Positions 2-11,394 of a stretch of 64,000 bases of DNA are shown in pieces. Origin of the DNA: an uncultured Erysipelotrichaceae bacterium (GTDB lineage Bacteria; Bacillota_I; Bacilli_A; RF39; UBA660); assembly GCA_902780395.1 (NCBI GenBank), contig CACZFH010000004.1:1-64000 (forward strand), in the 5' to 3' direction. Numbering within the stretch: position 1 is the first letter of the stretch; every line of letters starts with the position of its first letter. A model generated the notes under the pieces. The model saw only the letters and a list, made by a program, of their open reading frames with translations, had not been told where the DNA came from and did not search any database. The position numbers were made by a program, and so were the translations under genes.

Positions 2-622
2 CTCCCACATCTTCTTTATGTGAGTGGGAACGATGGTTTGAATTATTTTGGTTCCAACACAGTAAATAACTATGGAGTTCGTCCAGCCATTTCTCTAAAG
101 CCAGGTACCCATTATTCTACTGGAAATGGAAGTATGGCCAATCCATATATAGTAGATGCTGAAGCACGTCGTTATGTTTATTCGACTAGCACTGAAAATG
201 CAAAAGGTGCTTTAGTATCAGAGCTAGGTTCTACTTATAGAACAGAACAAGAAGCAATAAATGGCTTTAATAAAAGAGTAGTTTTAAATCATAGAATAGA
301 AAATGATCGAGTAACTTCTAGTGGAGTAACCTTTGAAAGAAATGGTATTATCTATACTCTATATGGTGAAGGAGCAACTTATAATGATTCAACAGGAGAA
401 TATAATGAAGATAGTATTTATTATGATGATAACAAACAAACTCTAAAAGAAGCCTTTGGAGAAGAAAATTGTACTGAGTACACAACACCAGAGAAATATT
501 ATGAATGCACTGATGGAAGTGAAGTAGGAGCAGTAAGAGCATCAGGTAGAGTGGGAGTTGAAATAAATCAATGGTACTGTAGAGATTTCCAAGATGGAAC
601 TTTTCACTGCAGGCAATATTAA
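2..622 (+). CDS. Surface protein, GVRP-module family (5' end outside window)
   Basis: The reading frame is open from the left edge, so this is the C-terminal 206 residues of a larger protein. A GTG at 20 is an internal codon, not a convincing start. The first 50 residues carry the module shared with the next two genes: GVRPAISLKPGT followed by a Y-S-T-G-x-G-S-M-A-x-P-Y-I motif. Unlike those paralogues it does not end there. About 150 more residues follow, with four cysteines near the C-terminus. Such modules, often with a C-type-lectin-like fold, sit at the ends of variable surface proteins in gut Firmicutes; ligand and function are not visible here. A terminator follows directly. Confidence 0.75.
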   Translation, partial: LPHLLYVSGNDGLNYFGSNTVNNYGVRPAISLKPGTHYSTGNGSMANPYIVDAEARRYVYSTSTENAKGALVSELGSTYRTEQEAINGFNKRVVLNHRIENDRVTSSGVTFERNGIIYTLYGEGATYNDSTGEYNEDSIYYDDNKQTLKEAFGEENCTEYTTPEKYYECTDGSEVGAVRASGRVGVEINQWYCRDFQDGTFHCRQY

Positions 623-697: not shown

Positions 698-3001
698 ATG
701 AAACGTAGGAAAAGAAGAAGAAAACTACATACTAGAAAAGTATTATTACTAAATATGGTTTTAGTAGTTTTTGTGTTCCTTGGAATTGGTTATTCTTTCC
801 TAACTACAGAGTTAACTATTGATGGAGACATGAGTGTTAAAAAATACGTAGATACTTCTCTTTATAATGTCTTAAAAAAAGAAGTGGAAGCTAATGGTTT
901 AGCCAAAGAATATACTGGTGACCATCAAGACTCGATTGATGCTTCTTTATCAACAGAAAAAATATATCATTGGTATGGAAATAATGCTACCGAAGGCGCT
1001 TCTATCTTAAATAAAAATAATGTAATTTTTGCTAATCAATGTTGGCAAATGATGAGAACTACCGATACTGGTGGAGTTAAGATGATGTATAATGGAGAAG
1101 CCGAGAATAATCAATGTTTAACTACTAGAGGAAATCATATTGGTTATGATGGTGCTTTTTCAAAAGATATGACAAGTGATTACTGGTATGGAACAGATTA
1201 TACCTATGATTCTACAAATAATGTATTCAATGTTTCTGGTACTACCGAATTTTCCTCATGGAATGCTACGACAGGACCTAATCTAGTAGGCAAATATACT
1301 TGTGGACATTCGCTATTGGATTCTCCATGCTCAACCATATACTATGTGGAGTCATATGTGAGTCCAACAACTGCCACACTTGTTTCAATTGATTCAGATA
1401 TTAATTATTCTAAAATAGGTAATTTACCTTTCAATTTGGATTTTAATTCCCCAGCTTATCTTGGATATATGTATGGTGATATTCATGAATTTCAGGATTT
1501 AACTCTTACTGAAGAAGATATGACTGAAGTCTCACGGCTTTTAATAGATGATTCAATGGATGCTAATTATTATTATTCAAAAACGATTAATAAAAATGGA
1601 TCCAGTTATTCATTAATTAATCCAATACTTGGAAGTAATATACCAAATGGAGATTATAGTGGCTATTATACATTTGCTAGTTCTAGTGTAACTAGTGGAA
1701 CAGAAATAAAATACTTATTTGGAAAAGATGATGAGAATGGCTATTATTATAAAAATCTTAATTATCCACTGGAAGTAAATGACTATGTGATAGCAATCGC
1801 CAATAACATGATAGATAATGGTAATGATACTTATACTCTTGATGATATTTCTTATGTTACTATTACTGATTGGTATAATAATTATGCTAATTATGAAAAA
1901 AAGTATACATGTGGTGATTACTACACAACTACCTGTTCCCATCCTTCATATATTATTAGCACTAAACCTGATATATATGAATATGTTGATTCTGGGATAA
2001 AATTCATGATAGGTAAGAATAAAAGTGGAACTACCTTAACGGATACTCTTTTAGTTAGAAGAGATGAGTGGTATGATGACTATAGTTCTGCAAACAATGT
2101 TGGTAATTTTGGTGAATATAAATATACTTGTAATACAACAAGTGCTAATTGTACAGATCAAAATTTGCGAATGATATATTATAAAACAGAAAAAGGTTAT
2201 TACTATTTATATAATCATTATTGGGGATCTAGTGCTACTTGGGATGGCACCAAATACACATTAGTAAATCCAATAGGAATTGAAAATTATGATAACTTTA
2301 CTGAACTAAATACTCATCATTATACTTGTGTTGAGTGGGGAGCAACATCATGTACTAGAGTTGCCTATATCTATAATTATAGTTTAGAATTCAATTTTTC
2401 TGTTTATGGAGAAAAATATGTTTACTTAGAAAATGGAGTTACTGATCCTTCACAAGTATTATCGGATATGCTTGATAAGAATACTACTAATTCCGTTATG
2501 AAAAATGGTTTGGAATCTTGGTATAAGAGAAATTTATTAAGTTATGATGATTATATTGAAGATACCATCTACTGTAATAATAGGGAAATATCGAATCTCT
2601 ATGGTTGGGATCCAAATGGAGGAGATTTAGCAACAAGACTAACTTATGAGGATAATGAAGTAAATACTGATTTGTATTGTACAAAGGTAACAGATCGTTT
2701 CAGTGTAAATAATCCTCAAGCCCAGCTTACTTATAAAATTGGTTTACCTACATTTTCTGAAGTGAACTTGTTGAATACTGATAGTGTTAGAACATCAACT
2801 GATTGGTATTGGCTATTCTCACCTAACTATATGCATTGGTATACTCCTTTTATATTAGTTGTAGATACAAATGGTTCAGTTAGTTATGTTCCATCATTTG
2901 AACCAGGTGCTGTTAGACCTGTTATTTCTTTAAAAGCAGGAACTAAGTATCTATCAGGAGATGGCTCTATGGCTACTCCTTATATAATTACTACTGGTTA
3001 A
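698..3001 (+). CDS. Large membrane-anchored surface protein with C-terminal GVRP module
   Basis: This is a 767-residue protein. Residues 1-15 are strongly basic, and a single hydrophobic segment at about 16-33 (an anchor or uncleaved signal) ends in GIGYSFLTTELTIDG. The third paralogue has the matching GIGYAVLNTTLGIDG. The exposed part opens with a Cys-Trp-Gln-Met block (TTDTGGVKMMYNGE) and has many Tyr/Asn/Cys residues and repeated xDWYxxY motifs. It ends with the AVRPVISLKAGT / GDGSMATPYI module. Family members show this architecture in gut Bacillota, but no activity is known to me. The start ATG follows AGGGTAGAAG. It is probably a cell-surface adhesin or receptor; its C-terminal module lacks the G+C-rich patch seen in the third copy. 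Confidence 0.8.
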   Translation: MKRRKRRRKLHTRKVLLLNMVLVVFVFLGIGYSFLTTELTIDGDMSVKKYVDTSLYNVLKKEVEANGLAKEYTGDHQDSIDASLSTEKIYHWYGNNATEGASILNKNNVIFANQCWQMMRTTDTGGVKMMYNGEAENNQCLTTRGNHIGYDGAFSKDMTSDYWYGTDYTYDSTNNVFNVSGTTEFSSWNATTGPNLVGKYTCGHSLLDSPCSTIYYVESYVSPTTATLVSIDSDINYSKIGNLPFNLDFNSPAYLGYMYGDIHEFQDLTLTEEDMTEVSRLLIDDSMDANYYYSKTINKNGSSYSLINPILGSNIPNGDYSGYYTFASSSVTSGTEIKYLFGKDDENGYYYKNLNYPLEVNDYVIAIANNMIDNGNDTYTLDDISYVTITDWYNNYANYEKKYTCGDYYTTTCSHPSYIISTKPDIYEYVDSGIKFMIGKNKSGTTLTDTLLVRRDEWYDDYSSANNVGNFGEYKYTCNTTSANCTDQNLRMIYYKTEKGYYYLYNHYWGSSATWDGTKYTLVNPIGIENYDNFTELNTHHYTCVEWGATSCTRVAYIYNYSLEFNFSVYGEKYVYLENGVTDPSQVLSDMLDKNTTNSVMKNGLESWYKRNLLSYDDYIEDTIYCNNREISNLYGWDPNGGDLATRLTYEDNEVNTDLYCTKVTDRFSVNNPQAQLTYKIGLPTFSEVNLLNTDSVRTSTDWYWLFSPNYMHWYTPFILVVDTNGSVSYVPSFEPGAVRPVISLKAGTKYLSGDGSMATPYIITTG

Positions 3002-3074: not shown

Positions 3075-3506
3075 ATGTGGTGGAAACGGCTTAAGAGAAG
3101 ACAACGTTTTGCACGTAAAAGAAATCTAACATATCTCCTTTTTTTGTTTATTCTACTTAGTATGGGTATTGGTTATGCAGTATTAAATACAACACTAGGA
3201 ATAGATGGAACAAGTAAGCTTGCTAATGCTAAATGGGATATTCATTTTGATAATATACAAGTAAAAGATGGTAGTGTTACCCCAACAAGTGCAGCTACTA
3301 TCACAGATAATACAGCAGTAGCTTTTTCTGTTACGTTAGAAAATCCAGGAGATTATTATGACTTTAATATTGATGTAGTAAATGCTGGAACTATTAATGC
3401 TATGATAGATACTATTTCAATACAACCAGTTTTAACAGAGAATCAACAAAAATACTTAGATTATATAGTAACTTACTCTGATGGAACAGAACTAGCAGAA
3501 TTATAA
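3075..3506 (+). CDS. N-terminal fragment of frameshifted surface protein (anchor plus Ig-like domain)
   Basis: The ATG follows a strong AGGAGGTG site. The product has a basic N-terminus, a hydrophobic segment (about residues 19-40) and the GIGYAVLNTTLGIDG motif. A beta-sandwich-like domain follows, with NPGDYYDFNIDVVNAG, typical of bacterial surface/TasA-like Ig folds. The frame stops at 3504-3506. The next frame continues the same protein immediately (ASDPDDYPDEDED and on into the family core). Removing one T in the GAATTATAAA at 3498-3507 would give E-Y-K-E-A-S and join the two. This is therefore half of one gene broken by a 1-nt insertion, either real decay or an assembly error. Confidence 0.7.
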   Translation: MWWKRLKRRQRFARKRNLTYLLFLFILLSMGIGYAVLNTTLGIDGTSKLANAKWDIHFDNIQVKDGSVTPTSAATITDNTAVAFSVTLENPGDYYDFNIDVVNAGTINAMIDTISIQPVLTENQQKYLDYIVTYSDGTELAEL

Positions 3507-5556
3507 AGAAGCAAGTGATCCAGATGATTATCCAGATGAAGATGAAGATATTCCAATTGAAGTATCAATTATTTATGTCCAAGAGAATGAAGATGCAGAA
3601 GATGTACCACATCCACCAACTTTATATGGTGTTTTAGAAGATGCAGCAGAAGAGGGAACCTATGCCAAAGAGTATACAGGAGCACATAAAGATTCATTTA
3701 CCCAAAATCCTAGTAAAAAGATATATCATTGGTATGCCGATAATAATACAAATGGAACTGCTATCTTAGATAAGAATAATGTAATATTTGCCGGACATTG
3801 CTGGCAAATGATAAGAACAACCGATACTGGTGGAGTAAAGATGATTTATAATGGTGAAGCAGTAGATAACCAATGTTTATCTACGCGTGGAACACATGTG
3901 GGATATGCATCTAGAACAAGCCAAAACTTAGCTTCCGCCTATTGGTATGGAACTGATTATACTTATGACTCTACAGCAAAAACATTTAAAGTAAGTGGCA
4001 CAACAGAACAAACTATGTGGAACGAGAGCAATGGACCAGGACTTATTGGAAAATATACTTGTAAATCAACTAGTGTTGATGGAACATGCGCAACCTTATA
4101 TTTAGTAGAATCATATTACAATAAGACGAGCGCTTATGTAATACCACTAAATTCTAGTTCTAATTATTCACAATTTGGAACACTACAATTTAATGCAAGC
4201 TATAATTCACCATCTTATGTTGGATATATGTATAATATAGTTTATCCAGACATTTATAAACCAATGACCTCAGTTGAGACTATGTTATTAAGTTCTTCAC
4301 TTGCTACAGATTATTGGTATGCAAATTCTGTAACTTGGGGTACTCCTACTGCGAGTAGGTATAATCTAGATAGTCCGTATCAAGTATCGGCTACAACAGA
4401 TTATCCAAACTTAGTAGGAGAATATACATTTAGAAATGCGACACAAACTTATACGAATACAAATGTATATTATATTGCAGCAGTAAATAATACAACCATG
4501 TATTATATTCAATTAGCAGATTCTGGAAATCATACTTTGACTGATTTTAACTACACATATACATATGGTGATAGTTTTACGGATAATGGAGACGATACAT
4601 ATACGATTAATAATCCAACAACAATAAAAAGAAGTGATTGGTATACAAGCTATAGTAGTGTGGGAGCAGGTAAATATGTATGTAAGAATGCAGTAAATGA
4701 TACATGTAGTGAGTTATGGTATACAACTGCAACTTCAACTACGTCAATGACATATATTAAGGTAGCAAATAATTATAAGTATGCAAAAGGATTTACTTGG
4801 GATGGAAGTAAGTATGTATTAGATAATGATACATCTGTCACTTTCTGGAATATCAATGATAGTACTAATGAAACAAGTATAAACAATGCACATTATACAT
4901 GTTGGAATGAAACAGGTGAATGTACAACCATATCTTATATTTATTTCATAGAAGGAACAACTCCATACTATATAAATATTACTAATGGTAAAAGTGTTGA
5001 AGATGCCAAAAATGAAATGTTATATGATGATAACGTAAACACAATCAATTCAACGATAAAAAGTGGAGTAGATGCATGGTATAAGCAATATTTATCAGAT
5101 TATTCTGACTATTTAGAAGATACAATATTCTGTAATGATAGAAGTCAAAGCAACCAATCAAATAATGGCTGGAATCCAAATGGTGGAAGAACTTCGACAT
5201 TTATGTATTTTTATGGAGCTAGTGATTTAAGTTGTCCAAATGATACAGATAAATTTAGTGTAAGTAATAATAAAGCAAAATTAACATATAAAGTTGGTTT
5301 AATGTCTTATTACGAGATGTACTTATTAAATAATTCACATGCACGAAAAACGGGACAAAACTATTGGCCTGCTTCTCCTAGCTATTTCTACTACAACGGC
5401 GCTGTTGGGTGGGGCGTGGTCACGAACGGTATCATGGACGTCAGCAGCGTCAGCCTCTCGAGCGGCGTGCGTCCGGCAGTTTCACTGAAGCCAGGTATTA
5501 CGTATTCAACTGGTGATGGAAGTATGGCTACTCCATATATTGTAAATACAGATTGA
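3496..5556 (+). CDS. C-terminal part of frameshifted surface protein with putative DGR variable region
   Basis: This frame is open from 3496, but the first ATG is at 3808. The residues before that ATG match the upstream paralogue (KEYTGxHxDS, KKIYHWYxxN, CWQMIRTTDTGGVKMIYNGE), so the true protein began at 3075 and the frames are separated by a +1 shift near 3503. The core resembles the 698-3001 protein throughout, including the Trp-Tyr-rich and Cys-containing blocks. The final 60 residues differ strikingly in base and codon use: 5380-5466 is dominated by NNC codons, then comes GVRPAVSLKPG and a Y-S-T-G-D-G-S-M-A-T-P-Y-I end. If the frameshift is real, the surface-anchoring half is lost. Confidence 0.7.
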   Translation, partial: QNYKEASDPDDYPDEDEDIPIEVSIIYVQENEDAEDVPHPPTLYGVLEDAAEEGTYAKEYTGAHKDSFTQNPSKKIYHWYADNNTNGTAILDKNNVIFAGHCWQMIRTTDTGGVKMIYNGEAVDNQCLSTRGTHVGYASRTSQNLASAYWYGTDYTYDSTAKTFKVSGTTEQTMWNESNGPGLIGKYTCKSTSVDGTCATLYLVESYYNKTSAYVIPLNSSSNYSQFGTLQFNASYNSPSYVGYMYNIVYPDIYKPMTSVETMLLSSSLATDYWYANSVTWGTPTASRYNLDSPYQVSATTDYPNLVGEYTFRNATQTYTNTNVYYIAAVNNTTMYYIQLADSGNHTLTDFNYTYTYGDSFTDNGDDTYTINNPTTIKRSDWYTSYSSVGAGKYVCKNAVNDTCSELWYTTATSTTSMTYIKVANNYKYAKGFTWDGSKYVLDNDTSVTFWNINDSTNETSINNAHYTCWNETGECTTISYIYFIEGTTPYYINITNGKSVEDAKNEMLYDDNVNTINSTIKSGVDAWYKQYLSDYSDYLEDTIFCNDRSQSNQSNNGWNPNGGRTSTFMYFYGASDLSCPNDTDKFSVSNNKAKLTYKVGLMSYYEMYLLNNSHARKTGQNYWPASPSYFYYNGAVGWGVVTNGIMDVSSVSLSSGVRPAVSLKPGITYSTGDGSMATPYIVNTD
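5380..5490 (+). other. Putative DGR-type variable region (VR)
   Basis: From 5401 to 5480 the sequence is 66% G+C (53 of 80 bases counted), against a surrounding background rich in A+T. Between 5380 and 5466, 19 of 29 codons are NNC (AGC, TTC, TAC, GGC, GTC, ATC, GAC, CTC, AAC). These are interleaved with non-NNC codons for A, GW, V, T, M and S, and the patch is followed by GVRPAVSL. This is what adenine-directed mutagenesis of AAC codons copied from a template repeat would leave. No template repeat and no reverse transcriptase lie in the window, so the assignment is an inference. Confidence 0.6.
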
Positions 5557-6858: not shown

Positions 6859-9108
6859 TACTTCAGGTGTTAATGGAGTCAAATCCTTTTTTTCTTCTTT
6901 TGGCACGTCATGAATAGGGGTAGGTAATGCCGGAATTGGCGATACCAAAGAATTAAGAACATCATCATCAATTGGTTTAATTGGTTCAATATTCTGTACA
7001 GGATTTGGATTTACTATTTCTGGTAAAGATTGATTAATAGTTGGTATCATACTCTTAACAGGCTCTACTGTATTTACTTGATTAACAGGAGATGGACTAG
7101 CAATCAAATTAACCAAAGAAGGAACAACTTGATTTGGTTTATTCTGAGAAGTAGGATTAGTTGGAACTTGTTGTGGAGCATTAGGTGCTTTATTATTTTG
7201 ATTAATTGTAGGAATTATTGGAACAGTAGGAACTGTTTTAGGTACAGTAGAATTATTTGTCTCAGGTGCAGTCACCGGTTTAACGTTATTTACTGTAGTA
7301 GTATTAGCAACAGGAACATTAGAAATAGTAGGAATAACAGTTGGTTTAGGTTCAACATTTTGTGGTTTTTCAGGTTGTACTAATTGTGGTTGTACCGGTT
7401 GTTGTACTGGATGTGGTTGTACAGGCTTTTGCTGAACTGGTTGTATTGGTGGTTTTGGTTGTTCAATAGGCTTAGGTTGTTCCAACTTTGCAGGTTGTGG
7501 TTGAACTGGTTGTTCAACTTTTTTAGCTTGTGTAACTTGCGAAGTTTTTTCTTCTTCAGCCTTTATAGGTTTTGGTGTTGAAGAAGTAGGTATAGAAGCA
7601 TCTTCTTTTTTATCATCTTTTGCTTCTTCTTTCTTTTCTTCTCCTTCTTCTTCTGAATTACCATCATCAGTAGAACTTTCTTCTGGAGCATCTGCAAAAT
7701 CAGCAGCTGAGAAAGCAGGAGCAGATACTAATTTAGAAACATCATTTTCATCATCTTTCTTAATAGAAACATCTAATAAACCATCAGCTTCTTCCACAAC
7801 AGCATCTTCTACAGGAACTGATTCCTTAATTTCAGTAGCCATTTCATTTTCATAGTTATCATCATCTTCATTTTCAATTTCAATTGTACGATATACTTCT
7901 TCAAAAGAAGTCTTTCCTTCTAAACACTTAATTAAAGCATCTTGTAGCATCGTAATAGTACCACCATCATAAACCATTTTAGCTAATTCTTTTTTTTCTA
8001 TTTTTTCATTACTAATAGCAGCACGAATATCATCATTAAGTTCTAATACTTCGTGAACAGCAATACGTCCATGATATCCTTTACGACAATGATCGCAACC
8101 TTTTGGATTGGCATCCCATACATGAGTAACATCCATATTCATATATTTTTTAAATACTTTTTTCTCGTATTTTGTAGTTTCTCTTTGATATTTACAATCT
8201 TGGCAAAGCATTTTTGCAAGTCTCTGAGAAATAATTCCAGATAATGCTGTAGAAAGCAAATATCTTTCAACATCCATATCCAATAAACGTTCAACAGTTG
8301 CTAAAGCATTGTTAGTATGGATAGTAGATAAAACTAAGTGTCCTGTAATAGATGCACGAACAGCAATTTGCGCTGTTTCAGAGTCACGAATCTCACCAAT
8401 AAGAATAACGTTAGGGTCCTGACGCAAAATAGAACGTAAAGCCGCTGCAAAAGTCATTCCAATTTCAGCATTAACTTGTACTTGGTTAATACCTTCAATA
8501 TTCATTTCAATCGGATCTTCAACCGTAATAACATTAGTTTCAGGTTTATTAAGTCCCTGTAAAATAGAATAAGTAGTTGTAGATTTACCAGAACCAGTAG
8601 CACCAGTTGTTAAGATGATACCATTTGGTATTCCCATCATACGTTTTACTTTTTCTAAGTTACTAGGATGGAATCCTAAAGAATCAATTCCCTGTAAACT
8701 ACGTGTATAGTCTAAGATACGGATAACGATTTTTTCTCCTTCATTAAGTGGTAAAGAAGACACACGCATATCTAAATAAGTATCACCAAACATCCCTTTT
8801 ATCGCACCATCTTGTGGTAAACGAGACTCAGTAATATTCATATTTGCTAATAATTTTAAACGAGTAGTTAAATTTCTTTCATAAGCTTTTGGAACGAAAG
8901 TATAATCCTGACAGTCACCATCGATACGGAAACGTACCATCATTCCTTCCTCTCTAGGATCGAAATGAATATCAGATGCATTATGTTTAGATGCAGAAAT
9001 GATGATATAATCTGCTATCTGAGTAATAGGAGTCTTTGCATAATCAAAAGACACCATGAAACTTTCGGTTCCTTTTTGGACACGCTTGACATCAAACTGA
9101 ACCATCAT
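6856..9108 (-). CDS. Type IV pilus/competence-type assembly ATPase with long Pro/Gln-rich tail
   Basis: PilB/GspE/ComGA-family hexameric ATPase that powers pilin polymerisation at the inner face of the membrane. Walker A GATGSGKST is at residues 169-177. The Walker B region (VILIGEIRD) is at about 234-242, and the His-box STIHTNNA is at 261-268. A four-cysteine zinc element has C302, C305, C338 and C341. The N-terminal regulatory domain of PilB/GspE is absent, giving a ComGA-like core of about 390 residues. The last 350 residues are unusual: an acidic stretch, then QPVQPQ-like Pro/Gln/Val-rich sequence, probably disordered. The gene is divergent from two prepilin-like genes. The start follows AAAGGGG. 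No pilC or pilD gene lies in the window. Confidence 0.88.
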   Translation of the reverse strand: MMVQFDVKRVQKGTESFMVSFDYAKTPITQIADYIIISASKHNASDIHFDPREEGMMVRFRIDGDCQDYTFVPKAYERNLTTRLKLLANMNITESRLPQDGAIKGMFGDTYLDMRVSSLPLNEGEKIVIRILDYTRSLQGIDSLGFHPSNLEKVKRMMGIPNGIILTTGATGSGKSTTTYSILQGLNKPETNVITVEDPIEMNIEGINQVQVNAEIGMTFAAALRSILRQDPNVILIGEIRDSETAQIAVRASITGHLVLSTIHTNNALATVERLLDMDVERYLLSTALSGIISQRLAKMLCQDCKYQRETTKYEKKVFKKYMNMDVTHVWDANPKGCDHCRKGYHGRIAVHEVLELNDDIRAAISNEKIEKKELAKMVYDGGTITMLQDALIKCLEGKTSFEEVYRTIEIENEDDDNYENEMATEIKESVPVEDAVVEEADGLLDVSIKKDDENDVSKLVSAPAFSAADFADAPEESSTDDGNSEEEGEEKKEEAKDDKKEDASIPTSSTPKPIKAEEEKTSQVTQAKKVEQPVQPQPAKLEQPKPIEQPKPPIQPVQQKPVQPHPVQQPVQPQLVQPEKPQNVEPKPTVIPTISNVPVANTTTVNNVKPVTAPETNNSTVPKTVPTVPIIPTINQNNKAPNAPQQVPTNPTSQNKPNQVVPSLVNLIASPSPVNQVNTVEPVKSMIPTINQSLPEIVNPNPVQNIEPIKPIDDDVLNSLVSPIPALPTPIHDVPKEEKKDLTPLTPEV

Positions 9109-9198: not shown

Positions 9199-11394
9199 AT
9201 GAAAAAAAATAAATTGAATAATAAAGGTTTTATCTTAGCAGAGACACTTGTAGTAACGGTTTTTTTAATGATTTTATTCTCAATGCTTTACAGTAATTTT
9301 TATCCATTAATTGGAGAGTATGAGAAAAGAGAAAATTATGATACAGTAGATGGAAAATACTCTGCTTTTTGGTTAAAAAGAATGATTGAAGACAAATCAT
9401 ATGCTTTATTAGCCGATAATAACAGTATTCTAAATTTTGACTCAAGAGGATATGTACGATTTAGATGTAGCGATGTGTCAGAAGAAGATGATAAAAGAGC
9501 TACTTGCATAAACTTAGTTAAATCAATGCAAATAGAAGGTTGTGATAAAAAAGGTGATAATTGTGAAATCTATATTACAAAATATCGTATTGGAGACGAA
9601 TCAGAAGAAGTATCTAATTTTAAAAAAACAGTAAAGAATAATTTAAAAAAATACGAAGAAAACTGTTTTTCTAATAAATGTCAACAAAAGTATATTTCTA
9701 ATTGTATTAATGAAAAGGGATTAACTGAATCCGAATGTTTAGAAGAAGCTGAAAAAAAAGTATTTAGAAGTAGCTTCCAAGATTATGTAGATTCATTACC
9801 TGATTATAAAATTGATTCTTTAAATGGAGCAGAATATAGGGTGATTGCTGAATTCCATAATAGAAAAGATAATAATAATTATTTTTCTTATTCAACTATA
9901 GAAGTGAATAGGGGATTTGTTCCAACAACAACAACATCTTCTAATATGCACACTGTTAGTATTAAATATAATGCCAATGGTGGTAAGTTTAAGGATGAAC
10001 ATGGAGAGGATTACTCTATGTCAGGAAATATTATATTAAAAGACGGAACAAGCACAATCCATGTTTTATTAGGAGGAAGAAAATTACCAGATGATGGTTT
10101 ACTAAATTATAATGATGCCACTAATATTAATCTAGAAAGATTGGGATATTATATTGAAGCAGGAAAAGAATGGAATACCAAAAGTGATGGAACAGGTATA
10201 GATTTTAATCAGGATAATCCATACGAAGCAGAAGCATTTTGTCCAGATTTAAGTAGTGGAAATTGTGTAATTACGTTATATGCTAATTGGAAACCAGAAA
10301 CCTATTCCATAACTTATGATGCTAATGGAGGAACGATTCCCGATAATCCTACTTCTTACACAATTGAAACAGAGACATTTACGTTAAATAGTCCAACAAG
10401 TGATGAATTTATTGGATGGACTGGTAGTAATGGAACAGAACTTCAAAAAACAGTCAAGATAAATAAAGGATCTGTTGGAAATATGACATTTAAAGCTAAC
10501 TGGATGAGTAAAGGACCATTTATAAATAACGAAAATCCACCAGAAATATTCCAAACTTTAGCGGCTGCTTTAGATGGAACAACAAGCGGTTATATAATAT
10601 CTTTGAATTATGATTTTACCGATAGTTCAACACCAACATCGTCAAAAAACGTAACATTAGATTTAAATGGACATATCTTAACTACCAAAAAACTTCTAGC
10701 AATTACGGGAGGAACCATGAATTTAAAGAATGGAATTTTACAAAATGCTACTACTGACAGAACCATCGAAGTAAGGGCTGGAACTCTAAATATTGGAACA
10801 AGTGGTGATAATACAACTATAACTGAAGTAATTAATAAAAAAGCCCAAACACAAGAGAACCAAAATAGTTGTACGATTTATATAAAATCAGGGGCTACTA
10901 CAAATATAGAAGGAGATAAAGTTACAGTAAAAGCTGGTATGGGTAGCTCATCTAGATATGCCAAAACTATTCAAAATGCGGGGAAATTAACTTTTAAAAG
11001 TGGTAAAATTATTGCTGATGCCCAAATTGGAAATGGAGCCACAGCAGTAAATACAACAGGTACTTTTACCATGACAGGAGGATATATTTATTCTTCAAAA
11101 TTAGCTAACCAACGTTGTGGAGTATGTGTTAATGGTGGAACAACTAGAGTTACAGGTGGAACAATAGAAGTAAGTGGTAGAACTTCAAAAACTGGTTTAG
11201 ATGGAGGAGCTCTAGATAGAGTAGTTTCTAATTGTTGTACTTATGTCGGAAAAAGTGTTACACTAAAATGTACTGGAACCAAAAGATGCCTATATGGAAA
11301 CAATAATTATTTATATAAAGAAAGTGGTGGGCCAAACATAATAGCATCTGATGTTGAGAATAAAGATACAGGTACTAAAGTTGGATCATGTTAA
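9199..11394 (+). CDS. Giant prepilin-like protein with InlB-type repeats and beta-helix
   Basis: The N-terminus is a class III (type IV) prepilin signal: basic leader, K-G then FILAE, with Glu at position +5 of the mature protein and a hydrophobic helix. The body is not pilin-sized (731 residues). Residues about 250-440 contain two Listeria-Bacteroides/InlB B-like repeats (YNANGG, YDANGG, xANW). Residues about 455-690 have the periodic T-L-x-L-N-G / G-T-x-N-I pattern of a right-handed beta-helix. There are many Cys pairs. I start it at 9199 because GTGAT at 9187-9191 serves as ribosome site; the frame is open further upstream into the divergent gene. It is probably a surface-displayed pilus subunit or tip adhesin assembled by the neighbouring ATPase. 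Confidence 0.8.
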   Translation: MKKNKLNNKGFILAETLVVTVFLMILFSMLYSNFYPLIGEYEKRENYDTVDGKYSAFWLKRMIEDKSYALLADNNSILNFDSRGYVRFRCSDVSEEDDKRATCINLVKSMQIEGCDKKGDNCEIYITKYRIGDESEEVSNFKKTVKNNLKKYEENCFSNKCQQKYISNCINEKGLTESECLEEAEKKVFRSSFQDYVDSLPDYKIDSLNGAEYRVIAEFHNRKDNNNYFSYSTIEVNRGFVPTTTTSSNMHTVSIKYNANGGKFKDEHGEDYSMSGNIILKDGTSTIHVLLGGRKLPDDGLLNYNDATNINLERLGYYIEAGKEWNTKSDGTGIDFNQDNPYEAEAFCPDLSSGNCVITLYANWKPETYSITYDANGGTIPDNPTSYTIETETFTLNSPTSDEFIGWTGSNGTELQKTVKINKGSVGNMTFKANWMSKGPFINNENPPEIFQTLAAALDGTTSGYIISLNYDFTDSSTPTSSKNVTLDLNGHILTTKKLLAITGGTMNLKNGILQNATTDRTIEVRAGTLNIGTSGDNTTITEVINKKAQTQENQNSCTIYIKSGATTNIEGDKVTVKAGMGSSSRYAKTIQNAGKLTFKSGKIIADAQIGNGATAVNTTGTFTMTGGYIYSSKLANQRCGVCVNGGTTRVTGGTIEVSGRTSKTGLDGGALDRVVSNCCTYVGKSVTLKCTGTKRCLYGNNNYLYKESGGPNIIASDVENKDTGTKVGSC

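Follow-up and report, generated by a model that had tools for sequence, protein, structure and literature searches.

A variable region of DGR origin, with no cognate cassette in its genome assembly, at the 3' end of a surface-protein gene of an uncultured Erysipelotrichaceae bacterium

A G+C-rich patch at positions 5380-5466 of the window, as the entire stretch of 64,000 nucleotides analysed here is called, is a genuine variable region (VR) of a diversity-generating retroelement (DGR), judging by its sequence and those of its relatives. In a DGR, a reverse transcriptase (RT) copies a template RNA, inserting bases at random wherever the template has an adenine, and the 3' end of a target gene is exchanged for this copy. 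Sister species carry a complete DGR cassette beside a VR gene of the same family; the assembly of the window's own genome (G000) lacks such a cassette, and the gene that carries the VR is broken in frame in this assembly. The VR is most likely frozen, because the cassette is absent from the assembly and the gene is broken, and the favoured reading, which is considered reasonably probable, is that of an orphan VR left behind after cassette loss.

The VR was first spotted from its codon pattern alone and was then confirmed by its relatives. The G+C content at 5401-5480 is 0.6625, exactly the 66% that the initial annotation had counted inside an A+T-rich gene, compared to 0.33 for the gene (3808-5556) and 0.28 for the 64-kb window, and the richest 80-base G+C patches of the entire 64 kb are those at 5387-5416. 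Equally exact was the count of NNC codons, 19 of the 29 in-frame codons of 5380-5466. This is the top value of 19,190 stretches of 29 codons in long open frames, which contain a mean of 2.4 C-ending codons and reach 13 in the next best case. The target gene, its parts and its paralogues are located as follows.

20..622, plus strand: 3' end of a further paralogue, truncated by the contig start; not hypermutated
698..3001, plus strand: paralogue without a VR, with ordinary codons; no adenine-restricted pattern in comparison with the template repeat (TR)
3075..3506, plus strand: N-terminal half with membrane anchor, ended by the frame break at about 3496-3506; 79% identity to the N-terminus of the unbroken G029 homologue
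3496..5556, plus strand: open frame of the variable protein, with repeats and a C-terminal VR domain; 582-aa ORF, assigned by homology and a weak DUF6273 match
5364..5483, plus strand: entire segment homologous to the TR of the sister species; 120-base match, 77%, E=6e-20
5380..5463, plus strand: VR core, NNC codons at template-adenine positions amid constant codons; from the TR comparison and the NNC count
5464..5481, plus strand: constant G+C-rich 3' end, GVRPAV; candidate initiation-of-mutagenic-homing site (IMH-like), putative in function

The VR occupies the 3' end of the protein gene, and its core stops about 90 bases ahead of the stop codon. The sole difference between 5464-5481 and the TR, ATT to GTT, is common to nearly all VRs of the family, and the IMH-like GVRPA end after the VR is constant in nearly all of them. 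Identity between the 582-aa ORF and the C-terminal part of DGR target proteins in the sister species reaches 80%. DUF6273 matches the window protein weakly (E=0.011), and 11 of 13 family members match it, the best at 3.5e-6. With regard to a C-type-lectin-like variable domain, the AlphaFold model of the variable protein (pLDDT 36) is unusable, and no PDB match was found for this protein. The picture of one gene in the initial annotation had to be given up in terms of the open frame: the anchor half (3075-3506) and 3496-5556 lie in different frames, the homologue on G029:C46 is a single frame, and at the junction very roughly 17 codons seem to be missing in comparison with homologues. The frame break may be real or an assembly error.

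Homologous DNA was searched for in 59 genomes, including 35 others of the same genus, and was found in nine other genomes. On G018:C25 (RGIG5090, roe deer rumen) and G002:C114 (hRUG889), the first match is followed, about 430 bases downstream, by a second that is rich in adenine. At these loci the order is target gene, TR (TTGGCTTGCTTCGCCTAACTATTTCAACAACAACAACGCTAACGGTCGTAACGTGAACACGAACGGTAACATGAACAACAACAACGTCAACAACACTAACGGCGTGCGTCCGGCA), 140-aa gene in the Avd position and 498-aa RT. The RT (L112, L113) contains IGAMTSQ (IGxxxSQ motif) and YMDD and matches PF00078 (E=1e-18); the 140-aa gene has no convincing family match of its own. This locus, with TR, Avd-like gene and RT by a VR gene, is a standard DGR layout, and the same cassette was found in two further MAGs, L167 (RUG13444) and L168 (RGIG5890, sheep jejunum). 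The G018 cassette itself is divided between contigs. The near-copy rich in adenine, next to an Avd-like gene and a DGR-type RT, for which a search had been proposed in the initial annotation, is present on G002:C114 and G018:C25 and absent from the window's own genome. As a separate observation, DGR RTs of these Bacilli (L113:5642-7138, minus strand; L168, L170 and L171) match MutS domain I at their C-terminus (E 2e-5 to 3e-4); on G018:C21, MutS domain I is a separate small gene adjoining the RT (L145:7143-7559, minus strand, E 5e-8).

Comparison with the sister-species TR unveiled the restriction to adenines. The window core differs from it at 22 of 38 template adenines and at 5 of 57 other bases (Fisher p = 2.6e-7), and the nine other VRs of the family give p from 5.6e-5 to 3e-9, values that are not fully independent of the search because the TR itself was found with the VR as query; adenine restriction was not a criterion when the TR was searched for. 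Mean pairwise diversity among the ten VRs is 0.64 in adenine columns and 0.14 elsewhere (p = 3e-16). The paralogue at 698-3001 differs from the TR at 32 of 40 adenines and 68 of 81 other bases (p=0.79), and the place homologous to the VR core has a G+C content of 0.31 and A+T-rich codons. Together with the lack of hypermutation at 20-622, this bears out the earlier statement that the two upstream paralogues are ordinary here. Each homologue carries its own, different G+C-rich segment; a homologue with the identical segment, which had been named as a sign of simple transfer, was not among them. An ordinary G+C-rich segment of a surface protein, formed without any DGR, would agree with the presence of the GVRP motif in non-variable paralogues too. 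This explanation is ruled out by the adenine-restricted match to a TR adjoining a DGR RT in the sister species, the absence of the adenine pattern from the VR-less paralogue also speaks against it, and its probability is regarded as negligible.

The five non-adenine differences of the window core all fall at two spots, AACGGTCGT to GTTGGGTGG and ACT to TCG. Because the VRs of G005, G018:C25 and G029:C6 carry GAGTGG at the first of these spots, a variant template containing GAGTGG was probably the source of the window VR, and on it GAG to GGG would again be an adenine change. No template of the GAG TGG type was found in 39 genomes of the genus (up to 3 mismatches), GTDB genomes or viral contigs.

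G000 is a MAG of 1.83 Mb in 73 contigs, 96% complete, and the window is the left end of its contig C4. The earlier observation that neither TR nor RT lies nearby is valid for the window and for the whole assembly, and the place upstream of the gene, which had been offered as an alternative to action in trans, is a contig break. RT and Avd of the sister-species lineage are absent from G000, identical searches finding both in G002 and G018, and DNA and pattern searches for a cognate TR returned nothing but the VR and paralogue tails. Neither a cassette nor a recognisable remnant of one was found along the more than 60 kb of contig past the gene; within the window, the TR-VR match is the sole convincing one, other matches being short, weak and A+T-rich. 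A search for VR, TR and IMH patterns in viral contigs gave 71 matches by chance in phages of high G+C content, none of them rich in adenine or similar to GVRPA, and otherwise nothing. The initial reading of a DGR target is upheld in the identity of the VR and fails for an element at work here: since a cognate TR, Avd and RT are all missing from the assembly and the reading frame of the gene is interrupted, the patch is better described as a former or remote DGR target.

Three RTs are present in G000, namely that of a prophage DGR on C2, a retron-like one on C19 and AbiA on C44. The RT of the prophage DGR is of a separate lineage and has a TR of its own, and the VR of this element lies in another protein. 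Steering of the window VR in trans by this element was rejected, because its TR is unrelated to the window VR. The prophage DGR (G000:C2:58000-74000, L016) is complete, with a VR at about 7121-7220 within a 649-aa putative tail protein and a TR at about 7333-7432 in the gap ahead of the RT (7647-8906); its TR core recurs on G028:C14 (L163) with a different VR. AbiA (G000:C44:3585-5417, L018) is an abortive-infection RT (E 1e-111), and the retron-like RT (G000:C19:7632-8867, L017) stands beside an apparent restriction-modification pair. Positions 1-99 of the window are identical to the last 99 bases of L019 (G000:C50), both in paralogous genes, and the sequences then diverge; these shared contig ends are an assembly break within a repeated gene family.

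L166 and L167, near-identical loci of two strains with the cassette, differ by 21 substitutions and a 3-base insertion in the 121-base VR and by 38 substitutions in the other 10 kb or so, a divergence of 17% versus 0.4%. From the sequences of this pair, the DGR looks active in the sister species. Recombination between paralogues may have contributed, because 16 of the differences outside the VR bunch in about 170 bases directly upstream of it (3241-3413). In G018, a second VR gene distant from the cassette (C7:84.6 kb, L121) matches the TR and is adenine-restricted (p=3e-6), so that action on distant targets is likely in the genus.

Most likely, a DGR of the kind that in the sister species would rewrite the 3' end of the surface-protein gene, and so randomise a C-terminal domain, wrote the window VR in an ancestor or a donor. 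The cassette of TR, Avd and RT would then have been lost from the G000 lineage, with the diversified sequence staying in place; the target gene would since have been broken, and the VR would no longer be rewritten, with no cassette acting on it in trans. This orphan, frozen VR is supported by the sister cassette, the adenine restriction, L166/L167, the empty searches of G000, an excess of non-adenine differences, the frame break and the DGR on G018:C21. Counterpoints are that the MAG is in 73 contigs at 96% and DGR loci can break assemblies, that the frame break might stem from misassembly, and that the remote VR of G018 makes action at a distance plausible in the genus. The same remote VR, found together with a cassette, agrees with continued rewriting of the window VR in trans by a cassette of the species' own that is absent from the assembly, as do the incompleteness of the MAG, broken at a paralogue, the still open VR with few non-adenine changes and the documented remote targets of cyanobacteria (PMC7517822). 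Such rewriting is considered unlikely in view of a 96% complete assembly without any fragment of TR, Avd or RT, the broken frame of the gene, and five more genomes with a like VR and no cassette.

Adenine-pattern VRs occur in eight genomes (G000, G002, G005, G018, G024, where there are two, G025, G029 and G032), and a cassette is detectable in only two of them, G002 and G018. The five cassette-less genomes besides G000 are 58-94% complete, and the chance that all six miss the cassette through incompleteness alone is about 1.5e-5 if they are independent, which is doubtful; the figure is a rough guide, because repeats and mixed strains hamper the assembly of DGR loci. The G005 contig stops about 630 bases past the homologous part of the gene. 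Non-adenine differences number 3-10 in cassette-less VRs versus 0-9 in those with a cassette (one-sided p=0.04, from small numbers and with one count made by hand across a 3-base insertion), and the excess may reflect no more than a difference between the TR found and the one proper to the window. Acquisition of the diversified 3' end, or of the gene, from a DGR-bearing relative by recombination or transfer, with no rewriting in this lineage, would fit the window VR being of the TGG template type, like those of G005, G018:C25 and G029:C6, with no matching TR found, and the bunching of the L166/L167 substitutions upstream of the VR, a pattern expected of gene conversion between paralogues. No donor carrying this VR was found, and the present data do not separate acquisition from cassette loss; acquisition is judged quite improbable.

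A second DGR lineage of the genus is located on G018:C21 (L145, G018:C21:9000-25000), with an RT at 7560-8686 and a VR gene at 9648-10835, both on the minus strand, and a bAvd-like gene. Its TR and VR differ at 12 adenines and at no other base, and the RT frame is broken: this is a direct example of a VR that has outlasted its RT. On G030:C7 (L146), a DGR with an Asn-rich template (TR at 8218, VR at 7453) shows 15 adenine and 0 other differences over 70 bases, and its RT frame, which has three TAG codons, is broken or read through. More tentatively, the DGRs of the genus might follow a hit-and-run course, in which cassettes are often lost or moved between lineages and the receptors that they wrote remain, each a fixed variant different from the others.

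DGRs, remote targets and VR-less paralogues are already known (PMC7517822; PMC3521204; PMC8144416); modestly new is the orphan state of VRs across a genus. Should orphan VRs prove frequent, DGRs would have shaped more bacterial surface proteins than is now estimated, and a genus that has genomes with and without the cassette would allow cassette loss after diversification to be tested. Surveys of DGRs do not detect remote targets (PMC8144416), and VRs away from an RT are missed because the elements are found by their RT. Among the closest known systems are the sister cassettes of G002 (hRUG889), L167 (RUG13444), L168 (RGIG5890) and G018 (RGIG5090), which share with the window the target gene family, the VR layout and a TR matching the window VR. 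They possess TR, Avd-like gene and RT, whereas the window is without all three, and the window VR points to a variant template with GAG/GGG TGG in place of the GGT CGT of the sister TR. Chromosomal DGRs of cyanobacteria with remote variable proteins likewise have VRs at the 3' end of a paralogous gene family, some of them far from the cassette, and adenine-restricted differences; their remote VRs share a genome with the DGR, unlike the VR of G000, which has no cognate cassette (PMC7517822). The DiGReF survey described DGRs with several VRs and with VR-less paralogues; although the cassettes are complete there, the diversified gene is, as in the window, one of a family of paralogues with stable copies alongside (PMC3521204).
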